DNA of 46,910 nt, from positions 1 to 46,910 of the IMG/VR virus record IMGVR_UViG_3300009093_000065. One strand, given 5' to 3'. This DNA comes from a virus. Shown one piece after another: positions 32,351 through 46,910 of this stretch (position 1 is its first letter; the number at the start of each line of letters is the position of its first letter). The notes beneath the pieces are model-generated. The model saw only the letters and a program-made list of their open reading frames with translations, did not search any database and was not told where the DNA came from. The position numbers and the translations under genes are program-made.

Positions 32351-32427
32351 TGGTGCGGACAGGTGGATTTGAACCACCAACCAGATGATTTTAAGTCATC
32401 TCGCTCTTCCAGTTGGAGCATACCCGC
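32351..32427 (-). tRNA. tRNA with anticodon UAA (Leu codon), class I shape
   Basis: 77 nt including encoded CCA. Acceptor GCGGGTA/TGTCCGC (two G-U pairs), D-stem GCTC/GAGC, anticodon stem GATGA/TCATC with loop CTTAAAA (anticodon TAA), variable loop of only 5 nt, T-arm GGTGG-TTCAAAT-CCACC. The anticodon reads UUA, but bacterial tRNA-Leu normally has a long variable arm. Only one base separates acceptor and D-stem. So the amino acid is uncertain. Confidence 0.8.
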
Positions 32428-32433
32428 TAATTT

Positions 32434-32508
32434 TGGAGGCGGATGGTGGAGTCGAACCACCATCTCAGATTTAGGAAATCCGCACGCTATCCGTTGCGCC
32501 AATCCGCC
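32434..32508 (-). tRNA. tRNA-Arg(CCU)
   Basis: 75 nt with CCA. Acceptor GGCGGAT/ATCCGCC is perfect; D-stem GCGC/GCGT; anticodon stem CGGAT/ATCTG with loop TTCCTAA (anticodon CCT, reads AGG); T-arm GTGG-TTCGACT-CCAC. AGG is commonly rare in bacteria, so this fits a phage codon supplement. First of the two tRNAs in the leftward transcript. Confidence 0.9.
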
Positions 32509-32990
32509 TATAAATCCTTTCAGACAAACCCCTTCCCTAGGCATTTAGCCTTTGGGGAGTATTACTCGGTACTGCGGCTAGTCTCTTGAAACAGGAGAGG
32601 CGCGTTATTTCCCTTGCGGGTGCCGTTGACCGGGACGTAGGGGATTGCAGGATCGATTACCTGCCCGTTGCCCGGATTTGGCGCGTCACTGCTTCATCTG
32701 GTGCCTATTTCCAGTAGACTTTACTGCGAACAGAGCCGTTGTTTTGAGGAGGAAAGGTGTCTCTGGAACCAAACCATTTCGTCCGCAATACCTAAGCAAA
32801 ACAACCTTGACACGTCCCGCCGCATCTGTCAACATCAAAGTGCGGGTGTTGCTAGACCGCGAATGCCTAAGCAACCTTCCAAGTCGAACCAACCCGGCGA
32901 CCCCGCACCCTTTTGGAAGAGCCAGACAACCGAACTGTCACCGTATGGTGCGCGTGCCCGAAAGGGATAGGGAATCTGGACAACTAGCTG
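32509..32990. other. Long apparently non-coding region with repeats
   Basis: No convincing gene; a TTG-started 68-codon frame (32686-32892, minus) has no ribosome site. It contains two copies of AAT(A/G)CCTAAGCAA (about 32785-32798 and 32863-32876), the sequence TTGACACGTC (32806-32815), also found at the early promoter/operator, and TGTCAA 20 nt further on. Possible roles are an operator, packaging site or origin, or a leader of the leftward transcript ahead of the tRNAs. Confidence 0.4.
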
Positions 32991-40508: not shown

Positions 40509-40994
40509 ATGGCAACCGATTATCGTGAGGTTCTGGCGGAATTGCGAGCGGAAGAGGCTCGCCTAGAATCCGACCTAGAGGCAATTCGGGCAATGATTCC
40601 CGGTGCCGAGGTGATGGTGCGGAGAATGGCAACCGCAACCATTGACCTGTTTTCTGCCCCAAAGGCCCCAAGCTGGGGACGCCCGTTCGCTGGTATGGGC
40701 ATCCGGCAAGCAATAATCCGCCTATTAGCTGGTAGCGATAGGCCCATGATGCCATCGGACATTACGCGGCGACTCATCGAAGGCGGAGTCGAAACGAAGG
40801 CGGCGGACTTCTCTGGAAACGTCAGCTCGACGCTCACTCAGATGCGGCAGGATGAGATCGTAGACCGCGTAGAAGATGGATGGACACTAATGCACAGGCC
40901 CGATGCTCACGGTAATCCGCCCATGAATGTTTCTGCGACTAGCCCCGCTTGGATTGCGATTTCCAACGCGCTTCGGCAGCAGCCCGCGCAATAG
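40509..40994 (+). CDS. Coiled-coil plus winged-helix protein, 161 aa
   Basis: N-terminal coiled coil (DYREVLAELRAEEARLESDL), then a winged-helix-like module (GIRQAIIRLLAGSDRPMMPS, DITRRLIEGG, STLTQMRQDEIVDRVEDGW). It resembles proteins that sense or bind DNA in small regulators. GGGAGGGAACGAA precedes the ATG. Expression is presumably controlled by the structured leader. Function unknown. Confidence 0.65.
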   Translation: MATDYREVLAELRAEEARLESDLEAIRAMIPGAEVMVRRMATATIDLFSAPKAPSWGRPFAGMGIRQAIIRLLAGSDRPMMPSDITRRLIEGGVETKAADFSGNVSSTLTQMRQDEIVDRVEDGWTLMHRPDAHGNPPMNVSATSPAWIAISNALRQQPAQ

Positions 40995-41127
40995 CAGTCC
41001 GCTTCTCAGGACTCAACGCCTCAGCCCTCGCCGTGCCTCTCTTGGCCGCGCGAGGGTTTGGCTTTTTAACTGGCTTCTCGCCTATCGACTGCAAGAACAC
41101 GTCGTAGGCTTTCTGGTTCACATCCAT
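40939..41127 (-). CDS. Small basic protein, 62 aa
   Basis: C-terminal motif ARAEALSPEKRTAIARAAAE ending in ARWKSQ belongs to a widespread type of short basic sequence (A-L-S-P-E-K-R-x-x-I-A-R-x-A-A-x-x-R-W) of unknown function in bacteria and phages. Convergent with, and overlapping by 56 nt, the gene at 40509. A weak promoter with ATG 6 nt from its -10 (GATGAT) is possible. Confidence 0.65.
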   Translation of the reverse strand: MDVNQKAYDVFLQSIGEKPVKKPNPRAAKRGTARAEALSPEKRTAIARAAAEARWKSQSKRG

Positions 41128-41208: not shown

Positions 41209-41237
41209 TTGACTCCTGCATCACTGTTTCATATACT
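41209..41237 (+). promoter_or_regulatory. Strong promoter of the tRNA operon
   Basis: -35 TTGACT (41209-41214), 17-nt spacer, -10 TATACT (41232-41237). The leader ORF starts 7 nt after the -10 box. Confidence 0.85.
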
Positions 41238-41244
41238 GCTGCCT

Positions 41245-41310
41245 ATGAGGTTCATCGTCATCAACACGCCACCGACCACCGGCACAGGAGCCGCGCGAGG
41301 GCGTGTCTGA
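41245..41310 (+). CDS. Candidate attenuator leader peptide, 21 aa
   Basis: ATG at the predicted transcription start; codes MRFIVINTPPTTGTG, then AARGRV and TGA. Of 21 codons nine are for Thr, Pro or Gly (plus the CCA, ACA and GGA codons read exactly by the three downstream tRNAs). No other role is apparent. GAGGGCG near its end (41297-41303) is complementary to the 5' arm of the downstream terminator with one bulged A. A short leaderless ORF between promoter and terminator is the layout of peptide attenuators. Confidence 0.5.
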   Translation: MRFIVINTPPTTGTGAARGRV

Positions 41311-41325
41311 ATCTCTAAGGAGATT
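41310..41325 (+). promoter_or_regulatory. Short hairpin between leader ORF and terminator
   Basis: AATCTC-TAAG-GAGATT, perfect 6-bp stem starting at the last base of the leader stop codon. It may pause RNA polymerase, as pause hairpins do in attenuators. Confidence 0.5.
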
Positions 41326-41335
41326 AGGTATAGCG

Positions 41336-41360
41336 ACCCTCCCAAATCGGGAGGGTTTTT
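41336..41360 (+). terminator. Intrinsic terminator in front of tRNA-Pro (attenuator)
   Basis: Perfect 8-bp stem ACCCTCCC/GGGAGGGT with a 5-nt loop, followed by TTTTT. The tRNA-Pro gene starts 6 nt later, leaving no room for another promoter, so the tRNAs must be made by read-through. Confidence 0.9.
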
Positions 41361-41365
41361 AGTTT

Positions 41366-41443
41366 CGGTATGTAGCGCAGCCGGGTCAGCGCACTCCGCT
41401 TGGGACGGAGGGGCCGGTGGTTCAAATCCATCCATACCGACCA
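41366..41443 (+). tRNA. tRNA-Pro(UGG)
   Basis: 78 nt with CCA. Acceptor CGGTATG/CATACCG, D-stem GCGC/GCGC, anticodon stem CTCCG/CGGAG with loop CTTGGGA (anticodon TGG at 41401-41403), T-arm GGTGG-TTCAAAT-CCATC. First C1-G72 pair is typical of bacterial tRNA-Pro. Confidence 0.93.
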
Positions 41444-41508
41444 ATTCGGGAGATAGTGTAAAGCGGCCAGAACCCAGAGCCTATACGGACGGACGGGTAT
41501 CGACACAT

Positions 41509-41646
41509 AACGGACAAGAGCCGTTGATGCGAGTATGGCAGACTCGCTCTCTCGACCAAGTTTGCAGGGCCGCCCGAAAGGGCGCAGTCCGAACCTAAGG
41601 AAACAGCCGCGAGTAATCAGAGGGGACTGGCGCGGTGGCCCTGCAA
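41509..41646 (+). ncRNA. Structured spacer RNA between tRNAs
   Basis: The 212-nt spacer between tRNA-Pro and tRNA-Thr has no gene but holds ordered stems: AACGG/CCGTT (41509-41525), GCGAGT/ACTCGC (41529-41547), CGCCC-GAAA-GGGCG (41571-41584), a 10-bp long-range stem TTGCAGGGCC/GGCCCTGCAA (41562-41571 with 41637-41646) and, nested in it, GCGCAGTCC with GGACTGGCGC (one bulge). The GAAA hairpin and the nested stem are alternatives. A small regulatory RNA, processing signal or ribozyme is possible. Confidence 0.45.
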
Positions 41647-41655
41647 TTCAGTTAT

Positions 41656-41731
41656 GCTGGTGTAGCTCAGACAGTAGAGCTGCGGTCTTGTAAACCGCCG
41701 GTCGTGGGTGCAACTCCTACCACCAGCCCCA
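41656..41731 (+). tRNA. tRNA-Thr(UGU)
   Basis: 76 nt with CCA. Acceptor GCTGGTG/CACCAGC, D-stem GCTC/GAGC, anticodon stem GCGGT/ACCGC with loop CTTGTAA (anticodon TGT at 41689-41691). The discriminator base is C, where A is more usual. Confidence 0.9.
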
Positions 41732-41735
41732 ATTT

Positions 41736-41809
41736 GCAGGTGTCGTCCAACGGTAGGGCCTCAGTCTTCCAAACTGATGATCGCGGTTCGAGTCCGCGCA
41801 CCCGCTCCA
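41736..41809 (+). tRNA. tRNA-Gly(UCC)
   Basis: 74 nt with CCA. Acceptor GCAGGTG/CACCCGC with one A-C mismatch, anticodon stem TCAGT/ACTGA with loop CTTCCAA (anticodon TCC at 41768-41770), T-arm GCGG-TTCGAGT-CCGC. It starts 4 nt after tRNA-Thr and ends 1 nt before the convergent tail gene's stop. Confidence 0.9.
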
Positions 41810-41810
41810 A

Positions 41811-43934
41811 CTACTGAATCACCACGCTCCCCGAAACTGTCACTCCCCCGCCCACGCTGGTAGAGGTGGGTGCTGGGGTTGAACCGAACTCATACATGCC
41901 GATGGCTGGCGGAATCAGGAAGGGCGCATTGGCGTAATCGTTCGCTGGCCCAGAGGTGATCCCGTTGCCTCGCGCCGGACTGCTGGACGTGAGCATGGGA
42001 TTTATGGCGTTGACATCGCTCTGCGCCACCAATAGAGGATCGCCGCACTGGTAGTTCGTTTCATGGCCATTCTGTGGGCAGGTAGAGCTACGCATCGTGT
42101 TCCAAAGGTTGTAGCTGATGTTGGAGCCAGCGTTGGCGAATGGGTCTTCACCTTGGAAGAAGAAGCCAGCGGGGAGGGTTCCGCTGTTGCCGGGATCTGG
42201 GGCACCCTTCGAGATATTGTCCTTGAAAATCAGATGTTCGGTTCCGTCGCAGAATCCCGTACAGGAGATGTCATACATGGTGCTGGCATAGCCTATTGAG
42301 GTGTTATGCACGATGGTCGTCGTGTGGCCGTTGCTTAGGGAGATGGCCCATTGGTCGGGGCCGCCCCGGCAGAGGTCGCCATTCACTTGTAGTCCAGCAT
42401 TCCATCCCGAAGGATTCAGTGTCAGCGGGAACGAGCCTCCGATCCCCATAAAGCGGCAGTTGCCATCGGAAAAGTTCAGCTCTGCCGTTGTATCGGCCAC
42501 GCCGCCAATCTTGAAAGTCTGGCCCATGTTTCCTTCGGCCCAATTTGCGATGATGTTCACGATCTGCGTGCGCAGCGGGTCGTCGCTCAGATGGGTCATA
42601 TCGAAACCATCCTGCGTATTCCAGCGCGAGAAAGAATTGCTGATGCTGAAAGTAACGTCACCCGCTGCGATCAGCACAAACCCGTCGCCTTGGCCTCCGG
42701 TGTTCTGCGCGTAGCAGTAGCGGTACCCGTCAGCGTCCGTGCCGATAGAAGACGGAGATGATGAGGTGTTGACCTCTACGCAGCCATTGAATTCAGTGCG
42801 GATATTGTTGAACGTAACCGTTCCAACACTCTCGCAGGAGGTTCCGCAGCCGCCGCCGTCCGAGTCCCAGCCCGTTCCGCCGTTGCCCCTGAGAAAGATA
42901 TTGTTCGCCGTGAAGGTGTCACCGGGATTCTGATTGAGATGGCTGCCGATCACTCCGGTGTAGGCGATGCCATGCGCTCCAATATCGTTTAGCTCCGTAT
43001 TGCTTGGCCCCTGGTTATGGTTTTTCTGCAATATCAGGCCGTAGACCGTGAAGTTGTTGCTGTTGCCGCAGTGTCCTTGAGGCACTTCGACACCGGACTC
43101 AGAAGCATCTGCAACCGTACCGGAAGCAAAGCCATTCACCGTGAAGGTCGAGCCGGAAATCGAGGCAATCTGGAAAGTGCCGTTGAATATCCCGCCGCCG
43201 TTCGTTGTGCCGGTGATGATGACCCACTGATTCACGAGCGGAGTTTGTCCGAAGGTAGGAGAGAAGGTGTAGGTCGCCACCGTCCCAGACTTAGAGGTGT
43301 GGGTGATGGCGTTCTGGCCGTCGCCTTGGCCCGTGCAGGAGTCAGGCTGCGTGAGGTCGAAGCCCTGCATGTCAAACCAGTTCACTCCCTGGATGGCAAA
43401 GAGGTAGTACGGCCCCGCCGCCGCCTTGAACACGGTAGGATTCTTGAGGTTCGAGCCGTCTGACTGATGGCATCCCGTTCCAAGTAAGACGCAGTATCCC
43501 AGCCATTTGGTGTGCGCTCCGCTTGAACCGTTGGGAGGCGATATAGGAAGGGTGCAATCAGGCACCGATCCGCTTCCGAAACACTGACGGAAGTTCAACG
43601 CGAACCAATCCGTCCCAAATCCGTTGTTTCCTTGGCCGATGGCGTAAGGCCCCGCATCAGCGAACTGGACGGTATCGCCGCCAAGGTAGTCCGTCCGCCA
43701 TGTCGCGTTAGTAAGGCCGGTCTGTAGCAGCCAGAACGGATGAGATAGAGCGCAGGGCTGGCCCGATCCTGTTCCCGGATACGCCGCGTTGGTGTGGCCG
43801 GTGCATTGAGTCGCAGTGCCGCCGTCCAAGCGGATATACCACGTCTGAGGGGAAGTGGCGTGAACGGTCACTGGCTTACGAAGGCTTAGTGCGATGCACA
43901 AGATTAGAGCGAGCGAGATGAGTAGTTTCTTCAC
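41811..43934 (-). CDS. Secreted-type beta-helix surface or tail protein, 707 aa
   Basis: An N-terminal Sec-like signal (KKLLISLALILCIALSLRKP and on to VHA), then a long protein with repeated Asn/Gly/Thr-rich strands characteristic of right-handed beta-helices (GNSNNFTVYGLILQKNHNQG, TFNNIRTEFNGCVEVN). It opens with a Cys-containing segment (YIRLDGGTATQCTGHTN) and has about 20 Cys in all, unusual for a cytoplasmically assembled virion protein and consistent with disulfides after export. May be a polysaccharide-binding or cleaving protein. It overlaps its upstream neighbour by 4 nt. Confidence 0.7.
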   Translation of the reverse strand: MKKLLISLALILCIALSLRKPVTVHATSPQTWYIRLDGGTATQCTGHTNAAYPGTGSGQPCALSHPFWLLQTGLTNATWRTDYLGGDTVQFADAGPYAIGQGNNGFGTDWFALNFRQCFGSGSVPDCTLPISPPNGSSGAHTKWLGYCVLLGTGCHQSDGSNLKNPTVFKAAAGPYYLFAIQGVNWFDMQGFDLTQPDSCTGQGDGQNAITHTSKSGTVATYTFSPTFGQTPLVNQWVIITGTTNGGGIFNGTFQIASISGSTFTVNGFASGTVADASESGVEVPQGHCGNSNNFTVYGLILQKNHNQGPSNTELNDIGAHGIAYTGVIGSHLNQNPGDTFTANNIFLRGNGGTGWDSDGGGCGTSCESVGTVTFNNIRTEFNGCVEVNTSSSPSSIGTDADGYRYCYAQNTGGQGDGFVLIAAGDVTFSISNSFSRWNTQDGFDMTHLSDDPLRTQIVNIIANWAEGNMGQTFKIGGVADTTAELNFSDGNCRFMGIGGSFPLTLNPSGWNAGLQVNGDLCRGGPDQWAISLSNGHTTTIVHNTSIGYASTMYDISCTGFCDGTEHLIFKDNISKGAPDPGNSGTLPAGFFFQGEDPFANAGSNISYNLWNTMRSSTCPQNGHETNYQCGDPLLVAQSDVNAINPMLTSSSPARGNGITSGPANDYANAPFLIPPAIGMYEFGSTPAPTSTSVGGGVTVSGSVVIQ

Positions 43935-44277: not shown

Positions 44278-46910
44278 CTATGGCTGACACTGGTAATCGA
44301 TATTTAGGGTTGCCCCGATGACGCTCAGGCCGGCCGTAATGGTAAAGTTCGTGGTTCCCGGCGTTCCATGCCCCAAGTCAAATCCCGCCGTTCCCGTGCT
44401 ACCTGATCCATTCAAAAAGATCGAACAAAATGGTGCTGCGCTTAGACCCGCAGAAAAATTTACGGTTACGATTGTCCCGGTGGTTGCTGTCCCGCCAACT
44501 AAAGCAATCTCGCCCCTCGTATTGGTGCAGGTATAGCCGCTCGCGCACCCTGCGGAAGTAACGCCCGTGCCGGGAGTGAACGTAGCCGTGCCTAGAGGAA
44601 TTGACAGTCCGAGCGCGCAGAATCCCGGCCCATTAGCGAGCAGACCCCCCGTTGTCGCCTGAACGCAGTTACCGGACGTTAAGGTGGAATCAGCGATTGC
44701 CGCAGCCTTCAGTTTGCCGGACGCATCGCCAGCCGTGCCATTTCCCACATCGATCACACCTGCCCCTTCGCTAGTGTCGCGCGAGAGGCCTGTATCAGGT
44801 GTTGCACTCGCTCCTATGCCATAGACCTCGCCGTTGGGCAAGGTGACTCCCGTAGAGGCGACCGTAAAACGCGCGATATCCTGCGTCATGATGTTTACCG
44901 GCGCACCTGTAGCCCCTGCGTCGATATTGAGTCCAGCCGTCAGCCCTGTATCCGAACGGATGATTGAACTGGACGGCGTGAATGGAGCACCTAGTCCTGT
45001 CGCCGTGGATGGAATCGTTATCAGGTTCATCCAGTTTGGATATGCGCCGATGTTGTGTGCCTGGTAGCAAGTAGTCGTCGCGCAGGTGGTGAATGTGGCC
45101 GATACCGCTGGCTCGTTCGAGGTCGTCACGAAGAAGTTAGCGAAGTTCGAGCTGGAGTCAGCCGTCGAGACACCGACAGAGCCGCCGTTGCTGGTGACAA
45201 GGCCATTGACAGTGGTTAGAGAAATATTCGGCGTGAATGAACTCGCACGCCAGTTGATGGCACCCGTACTCCCTCCGCTGCCATTGGCTCCCGTACCATC
45301 GTCAAACGCTACGCCGGGATATTTCAGGTTGTGTAGCCGAAGGTTCGTTCCGCCATTCTTGACGGCATTATAGATGGTCGAAGTCGAGCGGCCATCGGTA
45401 TAAGGGACGTTGTAATAAACGTCTCCGGTCAGCAGGTTGCTTGGATCATTGATTGCTGCTGTGACCGCAACCTCGAAATCTGCGGCCTGCACATTGATCG
45501 TCGCCTGCGCTACTCCCGCCGAAATCTCATAGTCGCAAAGCTGGCACCATAGATAATCGACGGACACCGAATTGCCCCATGTCGAATGGCTTGGGTCTGT
45601 TCCCGGCTCCGCATCGAACACCCAGCCGAGATGTGAATTGGCTCCGGCGATATGCCCAATGTGAGAGTGTTCGCCAAATCGGGCCAGAGCATAGAATCCA
45701 ACAACGGCCATATGGTCTACCGAAAGATAGACATTGTTGGAAAGGGCGGGGGAATAGTAGCCTGCGCCGGTGGTCGTGGTGGGCGTTCCTGAAGCGTCCG
45801 AGCGGATCACCACATCGTTGATCGTGGACGATGGGAAGAACGTCGCATTGACCATCACTGCTCCGGGGTTGACCTGCGCGTTGTGAATCTCTACGCTGTC
45901 CAGCTCAAAGTCTGTGTTGATGAATCCACCGTAAGGCCCAGAGACGACATAGCCGCCGATGAAGTTTCCGACCGATACATCTGCGTTGAGCGTGGCGGCG
46001 ACCGATTGATAGTAGACGTTCGGAGCGCATAGGCCTTTGAACCGGATGCGCTTCGTCGTCCCCACTGATAAGGGATTCGCAGGCATTGGAATAACGGCAT
46101 TCGCCCCGCCAGGGTCGAGCTTTGATCCGTGGACGTTGTATTCAGTCGATGAGCAGGGGATAAACAGCGTTCCTCCGCCTTCGCCGTCAAGGTCGGTTAC
46201 GGCCTGCCGGATGGCTGTCGTCCAGTCGCCCGAAACAGCGACGTAGGGGCTTACGCCAAGGCATTTGTTGCCGGTGCTGTTGGCCGTGCAGGTGGTCGGA
46301 TTAGATGATCCCCCACCGCAGGGATCGGCAGAGGTGCATACTGGAGAGACGCCAGAGCCGGAGTTGGCCTTGAGTGGCCCGTTGAATACAGCAGGGGCAA
46401 CCGTAGAATCAGAAACCAGCGCGTAGGTATTCACCGCACCCGGAACCGAATCCTGTGAAGAGATTTTCACGCCAACATTGTTGGTGGTGGTTCCCATAGT
46501 GATAGCGGTATTGGGAGTCATAGCCCAAATCGCATATTGGTTCGTGGTTGTTCCCGTCTCGGTGTCCGCCTCACCTGACAGGCCATACAGTGTTCCGATT
46601 GTGCCGGATGACTGATTCCTTACCGCTCCCAACACTCCGCCAAAAGTCAGAATATTACCTGAACTGCCGAACGCTCCCCCTTCGGAGTGATTGGCGATAA
46701 AAGTGGTGGACGCGTGGCTGACAGCATCCGAAATCGACATGAAGTTTTCATGACCGACCACAATGCTATTCGAGGGATCATTCACCGTTTTGTTGATATA
46801 GGTGGCAGTCTCAAACGATGTGTTTGCGCCCGGGTAAATAAAGGACGTTACATCATCTAAAAGCTGATACCTGGCCTCAACATCAACGTCGCCCGGGGGC
46901 CCGATGGTCA
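44278..46910 (-). CDS. Tail-spike-like protein, C-terminal part (continues from position 1)
   Basis: Codons 375-1245 of the gene that starts at 1123. No stop occurs between the joint and 44278. After Gly/Thr-rich repeats comes a pectate-lyase-like beta-helix beginning DWTTAIRQAVTDLDGEGGGT followed by LFIPCSSTEYNV, the usual entry to phage spike depolymerase domains. The C-terminus has a distinct beta domain (CASGYTCTNTRGEIALVGGT) ending NIDYQCQP. Expected role: binding and possibly degrading host surface polysaccharide. An internal GTG at 46785 is not the true start. Confidence 0.8.
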   Translation of the reverse strand, partial: TIGPPGDVDVEARYQLLDDVTSFIYPGANTSFETATYINKTVNDPSNSIVVGHENFMSISDAVSHASTTFIANHSEGGAFGSSGNILTFGGVLGAVRNQSSGTIGTLYGLSGEADTETGTTTNQYAIWAMTPNTAITMGTTTNNVGVKISSQDSVPGAVNTYALVSDSTVAPAVFNGPLKANSGSGVSPVCTSADPCGGGSSNPTTCTANSTGNKCLGVSPYVAVSGDWTTAIRQAVTDLDGEGGGTLFIPCSSTEYNVHGSKLDPGGANAVIPMPANPLSVGTTKRIRFKGLCAPNVYYQSVAATLNADVSVGNFIGGYVVSGPYGGFINTDFELDSVEIHNAQVNPGAVMVNATFFPSSTINDVVIRSDASGTPTTTTGAGYYSPALSNNVYLSVDHMAVVGFYALARFGEHSHIGHIAGANSHLGWVFDAEPGTDPSHSTWGNSVSVDYLWCQLCDYEISAGVAQATINVQAADFEVAVTAAINDPSNLLTGDVYYNVPYTDGRSTSTIYNAVKNGGTNLRLHNLKYPGVAFDDGTGANGSGGSTGAINWRASSFTPNISLTTVNGLVTSNGGSVGVSTADSSSNFANFFVTTSNEPAVSATFTTCATTTCYQAHNIGAYPNWMNLITIPSTATGLGAPFTPSSSIIRSDTGLTAGLNIDAGATGAPVNIMTQDIARFTVASTGVTLPNGEVYGIGASATPDTGLSRDTSEGAGVIDVGNGTAGDASGKLKAAAIADSTLTSGNCVQATTGGLLANGPGFCALGLSIPLGTATFTPGTGVTSAGCASGYTCTNTRGEIALVGGTATTGTIVTVNFSAGLSAAPFCSIFLNGSGSTGTAGFDLGHGTPGTTNFTITAGLSVIGATLNIDYQCQP
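46893..46910. repeat. Terminal overlap (copy 2) closing the circle
   Basis: Second copy of the 18-bp sequence found at 1-18. Position 1 corresponds to 46893 in the closed molecule, of about 46,892 bp. Confidence 0.85.

Follow-up and report, generated by a model that had tools for sequence, protein, structure and literature searches.

A putative leader-peptide attenuator upstream of a phage tRNA operon, and matching leaders before tRNA blocks of other phages

The tRNA operon and its genome

The window, which here means the whole analyzed stretch of 46,910 nucleotides (IMG/VR virus record IMGVR_UViG_3300009093_000065), possesses at 41209-41809 a plus-strand operon in which a promoter and a short leader ORF are followed by an intrinsic terminator and three tRNA genes (Table 1). 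Every element named in the preliminary description, including the promoter, the 21-codon ORF at the predicted +1, the terminator and the adjoining tRNA-Pro(UGG), was located at the coordinates of Table 1 by means of the sequence itself, ARAGORN, Rfam and pattern scans. The leader ORF has no Shine-Dalgarno sequence, its start codon being the predicted +1, and its stop lies 24 nt before the terminator. The terminator stem consists of nine pairs, six of them G-C, and is the joint-longest G+C-rich stem in the genome scan. tRNA-Pro starts 5 nt past the T5 run of the terminator; because this gap is too short for a promoter of its own, tRNA-Pro requires read-through, and the earlier claim that the tRNAs depend on read-through is borne out for this gene.

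Table 1. Features of the tRNA locus in the window
Feature	Position	Strand	Detail
Sigma-70-like promoter, TTGACT-17-TATACT	41209..41237	+	10/12; ATG 7 nt past the end of the -10 box
Leader ORF MRFIVINTPPTTGTGAARGRV*, 21 codons + stop, apparently leaderless	41245..41310	+	ATG at predicted +1
8-codon Thr/Pro/Gly run, ACG CCA CCG ACC ACC GGC ACA GGA	41266..41289	+	
Predicted protector hairpin (regions 1:2), stem 41264-41270/41300-41306	41264..41306	+	-21.7 kcal/mol
Predicted antiterminator (regions 2:3), GAGGG-CGU 41297-41304 with GCG-A-CCCUC 41333-41341	41297..41341	+	encloses a small hairpin
Small hairpin AATCTC-TAAG-GAGATT, in the antiterminator loop	41310..41325	+	
Intrinsic terminator (regions 3:4), 41335-41357 + U-tract TTTTTAGTTT	41335..41361	+	-17.1 kcal/mol
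tRNA-Pro (UGG), CCA encoded	41366..41443	+	ARAGORN, Rfam
Operon spacer, 212 nt	41444..41655	+	two foldable domains, no Rfam family
tRNA-Thr (UGU), CCA encoded	41656..41732	+	ARAGORN, Rfam
tRNA-Gly (UCC), CCA encoded	41736..41809	+	ARAGORN, Rfam

Processive antitermination, either lambda Q/N-like or put-RNA-like, might also control the terminator as in lambda pR'-tR', which is resembled by a terminator ~100 nt past its promoter. However, the operon consists of tRNAs only and is followed by a convergent gene on the minus strand (41811-43934), with no late genes downstream; no antiterminator gene or family was recognised among the proteins searched; and the cognate codons described below would not be predicted. 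Control of this kind is therefore hardly probable.

The spacer between tRNA-Pro and tRNA-Thr contains a segment with a tRNA-like look (41446-41557, CGGGAGA...TCTCTCG-ACCA, with possible D- and T-like stems) and a second one, 41562-41646, closed by TTGCAGGGCC/GGCCCTGCAA. A further tRNA or tmRNA in the spacer was rejected, as relaxed ARAGORN and Rfam searches gave no match and the fold z was only -1.45. On the other side of the operon, 40939-41127 (minus strand) is probably the gene of a small basic protein (MDVNQKAYDVFLQSIGEKPVKKPNPRAAKRG...), which is divergent from the tRNA promoter and overlaps called plus-strand ORFs.

The window record, which carries an 18-bp terminal repeat (1-18 and 46893-46910) and encodes proteins with terminase and endolysin matches, is probably a complete phage genome obtained as a circular assembly. 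Its group has no cultured relatives. No homologue of the leader or the operon was found by blastn against phages, plasmids and E. coli genomes, nor was an operon homologue found via TerL-based relatives, neighbouring-protein scans, tRNA patterns or GTDB TerL scans, and the leader peptide search gave no matches. The TerL relatives are without the tRNA operon, and one of them (G020, 46.8 kb) has no tRNA. A second tRNA pair in the window, Arg-CCU and Leu-UAA (32351-32508, minus strand), has no comparable cognate leader. Upstream of this pair, a DUF3800-IX RNA (Rfam RF02968, 50 bits) is present at 32921-32984 on the plus strand, opposite a stretch of ~500 nt without a clear gene.

Codons and predicted folds of the window leader

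As had been claimed, the leader contains CCA, ACA and GGA together with wobble-readable codons. All three codons are found together in 2.9% of the real short ORFs, compared with 8.8% of the shuffles, and six readable codons occur in 7-10%. The 8-codon Thr/Pro/Gly run, a comparison made post hoc, was found in 0.1% of 6997 real short ORFs and in 0/17355 shuffles, and Thr/Pro/Gly belongs to the top 0.85% of random three-amino-acid sets for this leader (rank p 0.0085). ACC ACC GGC within the run are non-standard codons for the UGU and UCC anticodons. Moreover, GGA and GGG sit late, too near the pairing site to serve as control codons, just as the preliminary description had cautioned.

The leader RNA is unusually structured, with a fold z of -4.55 (-2.2 minus the terminator). 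According to the folding model, the protector hairpin forms with P=1.0 when no ribosome is present, while a ribosome on codons 9-12 gives the antiterminator with P 0.97-1.0 in nascent RNA to 41351. The antiterminator appears only with the protector arm masked and persists only until the 3' arm of the terminator emerges, and region 2 is masked by a ribosome that has reached the stop codon. Codons 8-14 are so placed that a ribosome stalled on them frees region 2. These tests used simple ribosome footprints and no kinetics, and the first statistic, arm occupancy, was replaced by an energy-based one because weak partial pairings blurred it. The switch energy of the window leader is +2.4 kcal/mol (p 0.056), compared with +2.8 to +9.7 kcal/mol for E. 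coli attenuators (p 0.000-0.020), and 5/5 E. coli leaders (thrL, leuL, trpL, hisL and pheL) pass the same kind of switch test. The antiterminator proposed earlier, GAGGGCG with CG-A-CCCTC, folds in the model when a ribosome occupies codons 9-12, but shuffled leaders equal its switch energy in 4-12% of cases (p 0.04-0.12). At equilibrium, the terminator is always the preferred fold of the full leader, a result that was not counted against attenuation because classical attenuators also act kinetically.

The codon and RNA-switch evidence of the window alone is borderline (p about 0.001-0.1), so that by itself the window holds a plausible, unproven attenuator. The strong folding, which persists in part without the terminator, would also suit a small non-coding RNA (41245-41361) ended by the terminator, with the tRNAs supplied by constant leaky read-through, since intrinsic terminators leak, and with the ORF present by chance. 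We regard this as unlikely, as it leaves unexplained why about 18 unrelated blocks have an ORF matching the downstream tRNAs in this position.

Matching leaders before other phage tRNA blocks

The other loci were selected only on a terminator directly upstream of a phage tRNA, and the two scans covered some tRNA types only. The first scan (T5 <=25 nt upstream of a Pro/Trp-type tRNA) yielded 66 distinct loci besides the window, of which four have a strong terminator; a short ATG ORF of cognate codons is present at 4/4. Further leaders came from a systematic rescan, from the second scan and from extra blocks that were not selected by pattern (Table 2). For instance, the leader before Pro/Gln/Arg tRNAs contains RRPQPQQPRR, and that before Phe/Glu/Asp/Pro/Ala tRNAs contains FDFAFEFAAEAD.

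Table 2. Leaders found upstream of tRNA blocks in other phages
Leader	Downstream tRNAs	Source
MKKISFETQQPQPTTE	Pro, Gln	first scan
MKSFTKNTYQPWPQPD	Trp, Gln	first scan
MKVTTLHLLPEEPSKQRVLE	Pro, Glu	first scan
MVYANNIRRPQPQQPRRLYA	Pro, Gln, Arg	first scan
MIRDFANQPVNQPGLGGMYV	Ile, Asp, Gln, Pro, Asn	systematic rescan
MTGKRVIWGIVSGGLGT	Trp, Met, Lys, Val, Thr, Ile, Gly	systematic rescan
MTSLTCNSNYFTSSFSNY...	Phe, Asn, Ser	second scan
MLNAKLLPGNTGPATEDTPRP	Gly, Glu, Leu, Asp, Asn, Met, Ala	second scan
MRTFANIFDFAFEFAAEAD...	Phe, Glu, Asp, Pro, Ala	second scan
MQTTLVNIIEAMEAIMVEGAEVCL	Ala, Val, Met, Ile, Glu	second scan
MNQTPTTRTTTTQRIT...	Ile, Thr, Gln	second scan
MTPKYKTSNINKSITWSNYS...	Thr, Ser	second scan
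...SSLSWLLEGEGYD...	His, Leu, Asp, Trp, Gly, Tyr, Glu	extra block, same records, not pattern-selected
MFVSSSHSYCYSSHALS...	Ser, Cys	extra block, same records, not pattern-selected
VKTLCLSSLSSYSSLLSGSGGS (L290, GTG start)	Leu, Cys, Leu, Leu, Ser, Tyr	extra block, not pattern-selected

Two named phages also carry such leaders. In Stenotrophomonas phage Moby, the terminator of which was annotated by the depositors, the leader MNNMYSQNQFCKWSVEDAG... ends 58 nt before tRNA-Trp and has 18 consecutive residues all cognate to the 16 downstream tRNAs. In Vibrio phage D69 the leader MSHSICSQSAQHSARYNAFNSWISN... has 24 consecutive residues, in which all 11 amino acids served by its 12 tRNAs occur and no others. 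The D69 leader (L237, 3386-3493) falls within the 3'-terminal part of VPHD69_0165, a CDS annotated as hypothetical, and some attenuator leaders would thus already be annotated as proteins. Separate leaders can also match separate blocks of one phage genome: in G023 they correspond to Phe/Asn/Ser, to Pro/Gln/Arg and to His/Leu/Asp/Trp/Gly/Tyr/Glu, respectively. Loci L281 and L282 belong to a single phage contig of 330 kb (IMGVR_UViG_3300028840_008160), which has about 58 tRNA matches and at least three separate, putatively attenuated tRNA blocks, each leader matching its own block.

In total, a cognate leader precedes about 18/20 independent multi-tRNA blocks with many different tRNA sets. Two multi-tRNA loci with a terminator, L192 and L208, have no matching leader, and without cognate codons they show no switch either. 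Most phage tRNA clusters do without this arrangement; among 18 named-phage loci the leader was found at two, and most lack such a terminator.

The match was evaluated with ORFs picked by position, blind to their codons, and with tRNA sets permuted among loci. For 15 clusters the cognate fraction was 0.405 vs 0.218 +/- 0.030 permuted (0/20000), and the permutation test on 17 clusters including named phages gave 0/50000. For 18 clusters (named phages and extra blocks) it was 0.473 vs 0.251 (z 7.7, 0/50000), and the longest cognate run was 7.2 vs 2.5 +/- 0.5 (z 9.0, 0/50000); the 15-60 nt ORF rule of this 18-cluster test was fixed after the first examples, and the looser rule of the 15-cluster test agrees with it. 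As negative controls, 18 single-tRNA loci from the second scan, which are mostly prophage attachment sites and mostly tRNA-Thr, gave a cognate fraction of 0.044 vs 0.042, which is not significant. In four- and six-codon boxes, 61/95 codons are readable by the cluster's own anticodons, vs 49.7 expected under uniform synonymous codon use (z 2.4). As well, sequestration of the terminator 5' arm was compared between a mid-ORF and a stop-codon ribosome against shuffles, and antiterminator/terminator switching was enriched in the class (Fisher 2.9e-13 without the window; 2.6e-11 with cognate-codon positions).

In this class the ORF ends 19-54 nt ahead of the terminator, nearly always at 19-33 nt. 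These distances argue against a pyrBI-type coupling, in which ribosomes on a terminator-spanning GTG ORF (41303-41362) would break the hairpin. Such a frame is indeed open in the window (VSESLRRLGIATLPNREGF, ending at 41362) and has AGGAG 12 nt upstream of its GTG; however, this spacing is long, the start is a GTG, and leaders of the class stop ahead of the terminator instead, which makes the coupling exceedingly improbable. Alternatively, the leader peptide itself might be the sensor, through nascent-chain arrest at, e.g., Pro-Pro, rather than charged-tRNA levels. PP is present in the window leader, and QPQP or PEEP motifs occur in some others, but many leaders are without PP, and no peptide motif is common to them, only the match to their own tRNA set; arrest of this kind is very unlikely.

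Other leaders of the class, unlike that of the window, have a Shine-Dalgarno sequence. The short distance between the -10 box and ATG recurs in L174 (TAGACT-17-TATAAT-6-ATG) and L096 (TATAGT-6-ATG), and an ATG 6-7 nt past a TATAAT-like box in these three (window, L174 and L096) points to leaderless initiation among some members of the class.

Proposed attenuation and known systems

With cognate leaders in about 18 of 20 multi-tRNA blocks and with the enriched switch, the class supports the trp/his-type reading of the preliminary description, and we consider it very likely that 41209-41809 is a phage tRNA operon under ribosome-mediated transcription attenuation and a member of a recurring phage class. 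From the computed architecture, codon match, fold alternatives and recurrence, we infer leader translation, stalling that leads to read-through, and a trigger. RNA polymerase would start at ~41245, and a ribosome would translate the leader ORF. With ample charged Pro-, Thr- (or Gly-) tRNA, translation would proceed to the stop codon, the ribosome would cover region 2, the terminator would form and no tRNAs would be made; in the case of no translation, the protector hairpin would also hold region 2, with the same outcome at the terminator. A shortage of any one of these tRNAs would halt the ribosome at codons 8-14, where it would break the protector hairpin; the freed region 2 could then pair with the terminator's 5' arm, allowing the polymerase to read on and make tRNA-Pro, tRNA-Thr and tRNA-Gly. 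Candidate triggers are host defences that cut tRNAs, a shortage of amino acids, or codon demand; on-demand synthesis would suit counter-defence, and the two other triggers would act in the same way.

In phages of this class, the tRNA genes are probably switched on only during a shortage of the very tRNAs that they encode. More broadly, it is likely that many unrelated phage groups, including jumbo phages, share an apparently undescribed class of tRNA operons, sometimes several per genome, each with its own attenuator. The leader would list nearly all amino acids of the tRNAs below it, and the operon would measure and refill its own products on demand, e.g., when the host destroys tRNAs.

Similar to the phage leaders, E. 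coli trpL, hisL, thrL, leuL, pheL and ilvL have a short ORF with control codons, protector, antiterminator and terminator alternatives, and a terminator before the regulated genes. Those amino-acid leaders regulate enzymes, whereas the phage class would regulate tRNAs and sense up to about 15 amino acids per leader; unlike them, some phage leaders (those of the window, L174 and L096) also appear leaderless. Within the tRNA-charging machinery, pheST, which encodes Phe-tRNA synthetase, has a leader-peptide attenuator that senses one amino acid, but it controls a synthetase instead of tRNA genes. In T-box riboswitches, uncharged tRNA binds the RNA directly without translation and decides between terminator and antiterminator; the choice proposed for the window depends likewise on tRNA, but through translation, and Rfam matched no T-box in the window, neither at the gathering threshold nor with E relaxed to 5. 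As a mechanism, leader-peptide attenuation is known; the tRNA target, the multi-amino-acid leaders and the phage setting are apparently new as far as we know. In the open-access full-text literature, no tRNA operon under a leader-peptide attenuator was found, and the earlier statement that none had been described held there.

The purpose of phage tRNA genes has been under debate for decades. If the reading is correct, the leaders imply that phages detect when the matching charged tRNAs become scarce and react to it, in better agreement with replacement of lost tRNAs than with codon supplementation at a constant level. Phage tRNAs have been shown to replace host tRNAs removed by tRNA-targeting defence systems (PMC10264068, PMC11555353); attenuators or leaders are unmentioned in these studies, and on-demand control would add the missing sensor. 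The leader codons would offer a direct genetic handle on the response to tRNA depletion, and these would be the first attenuators known to us on tRNA genes, integrating up to about 15 amino acids per leader. Finally, CCTCCCAAATCGGG at 41342-41355 of the window terminator is common to the terminator of the E. coli pheL attenuator, probably by convergence.
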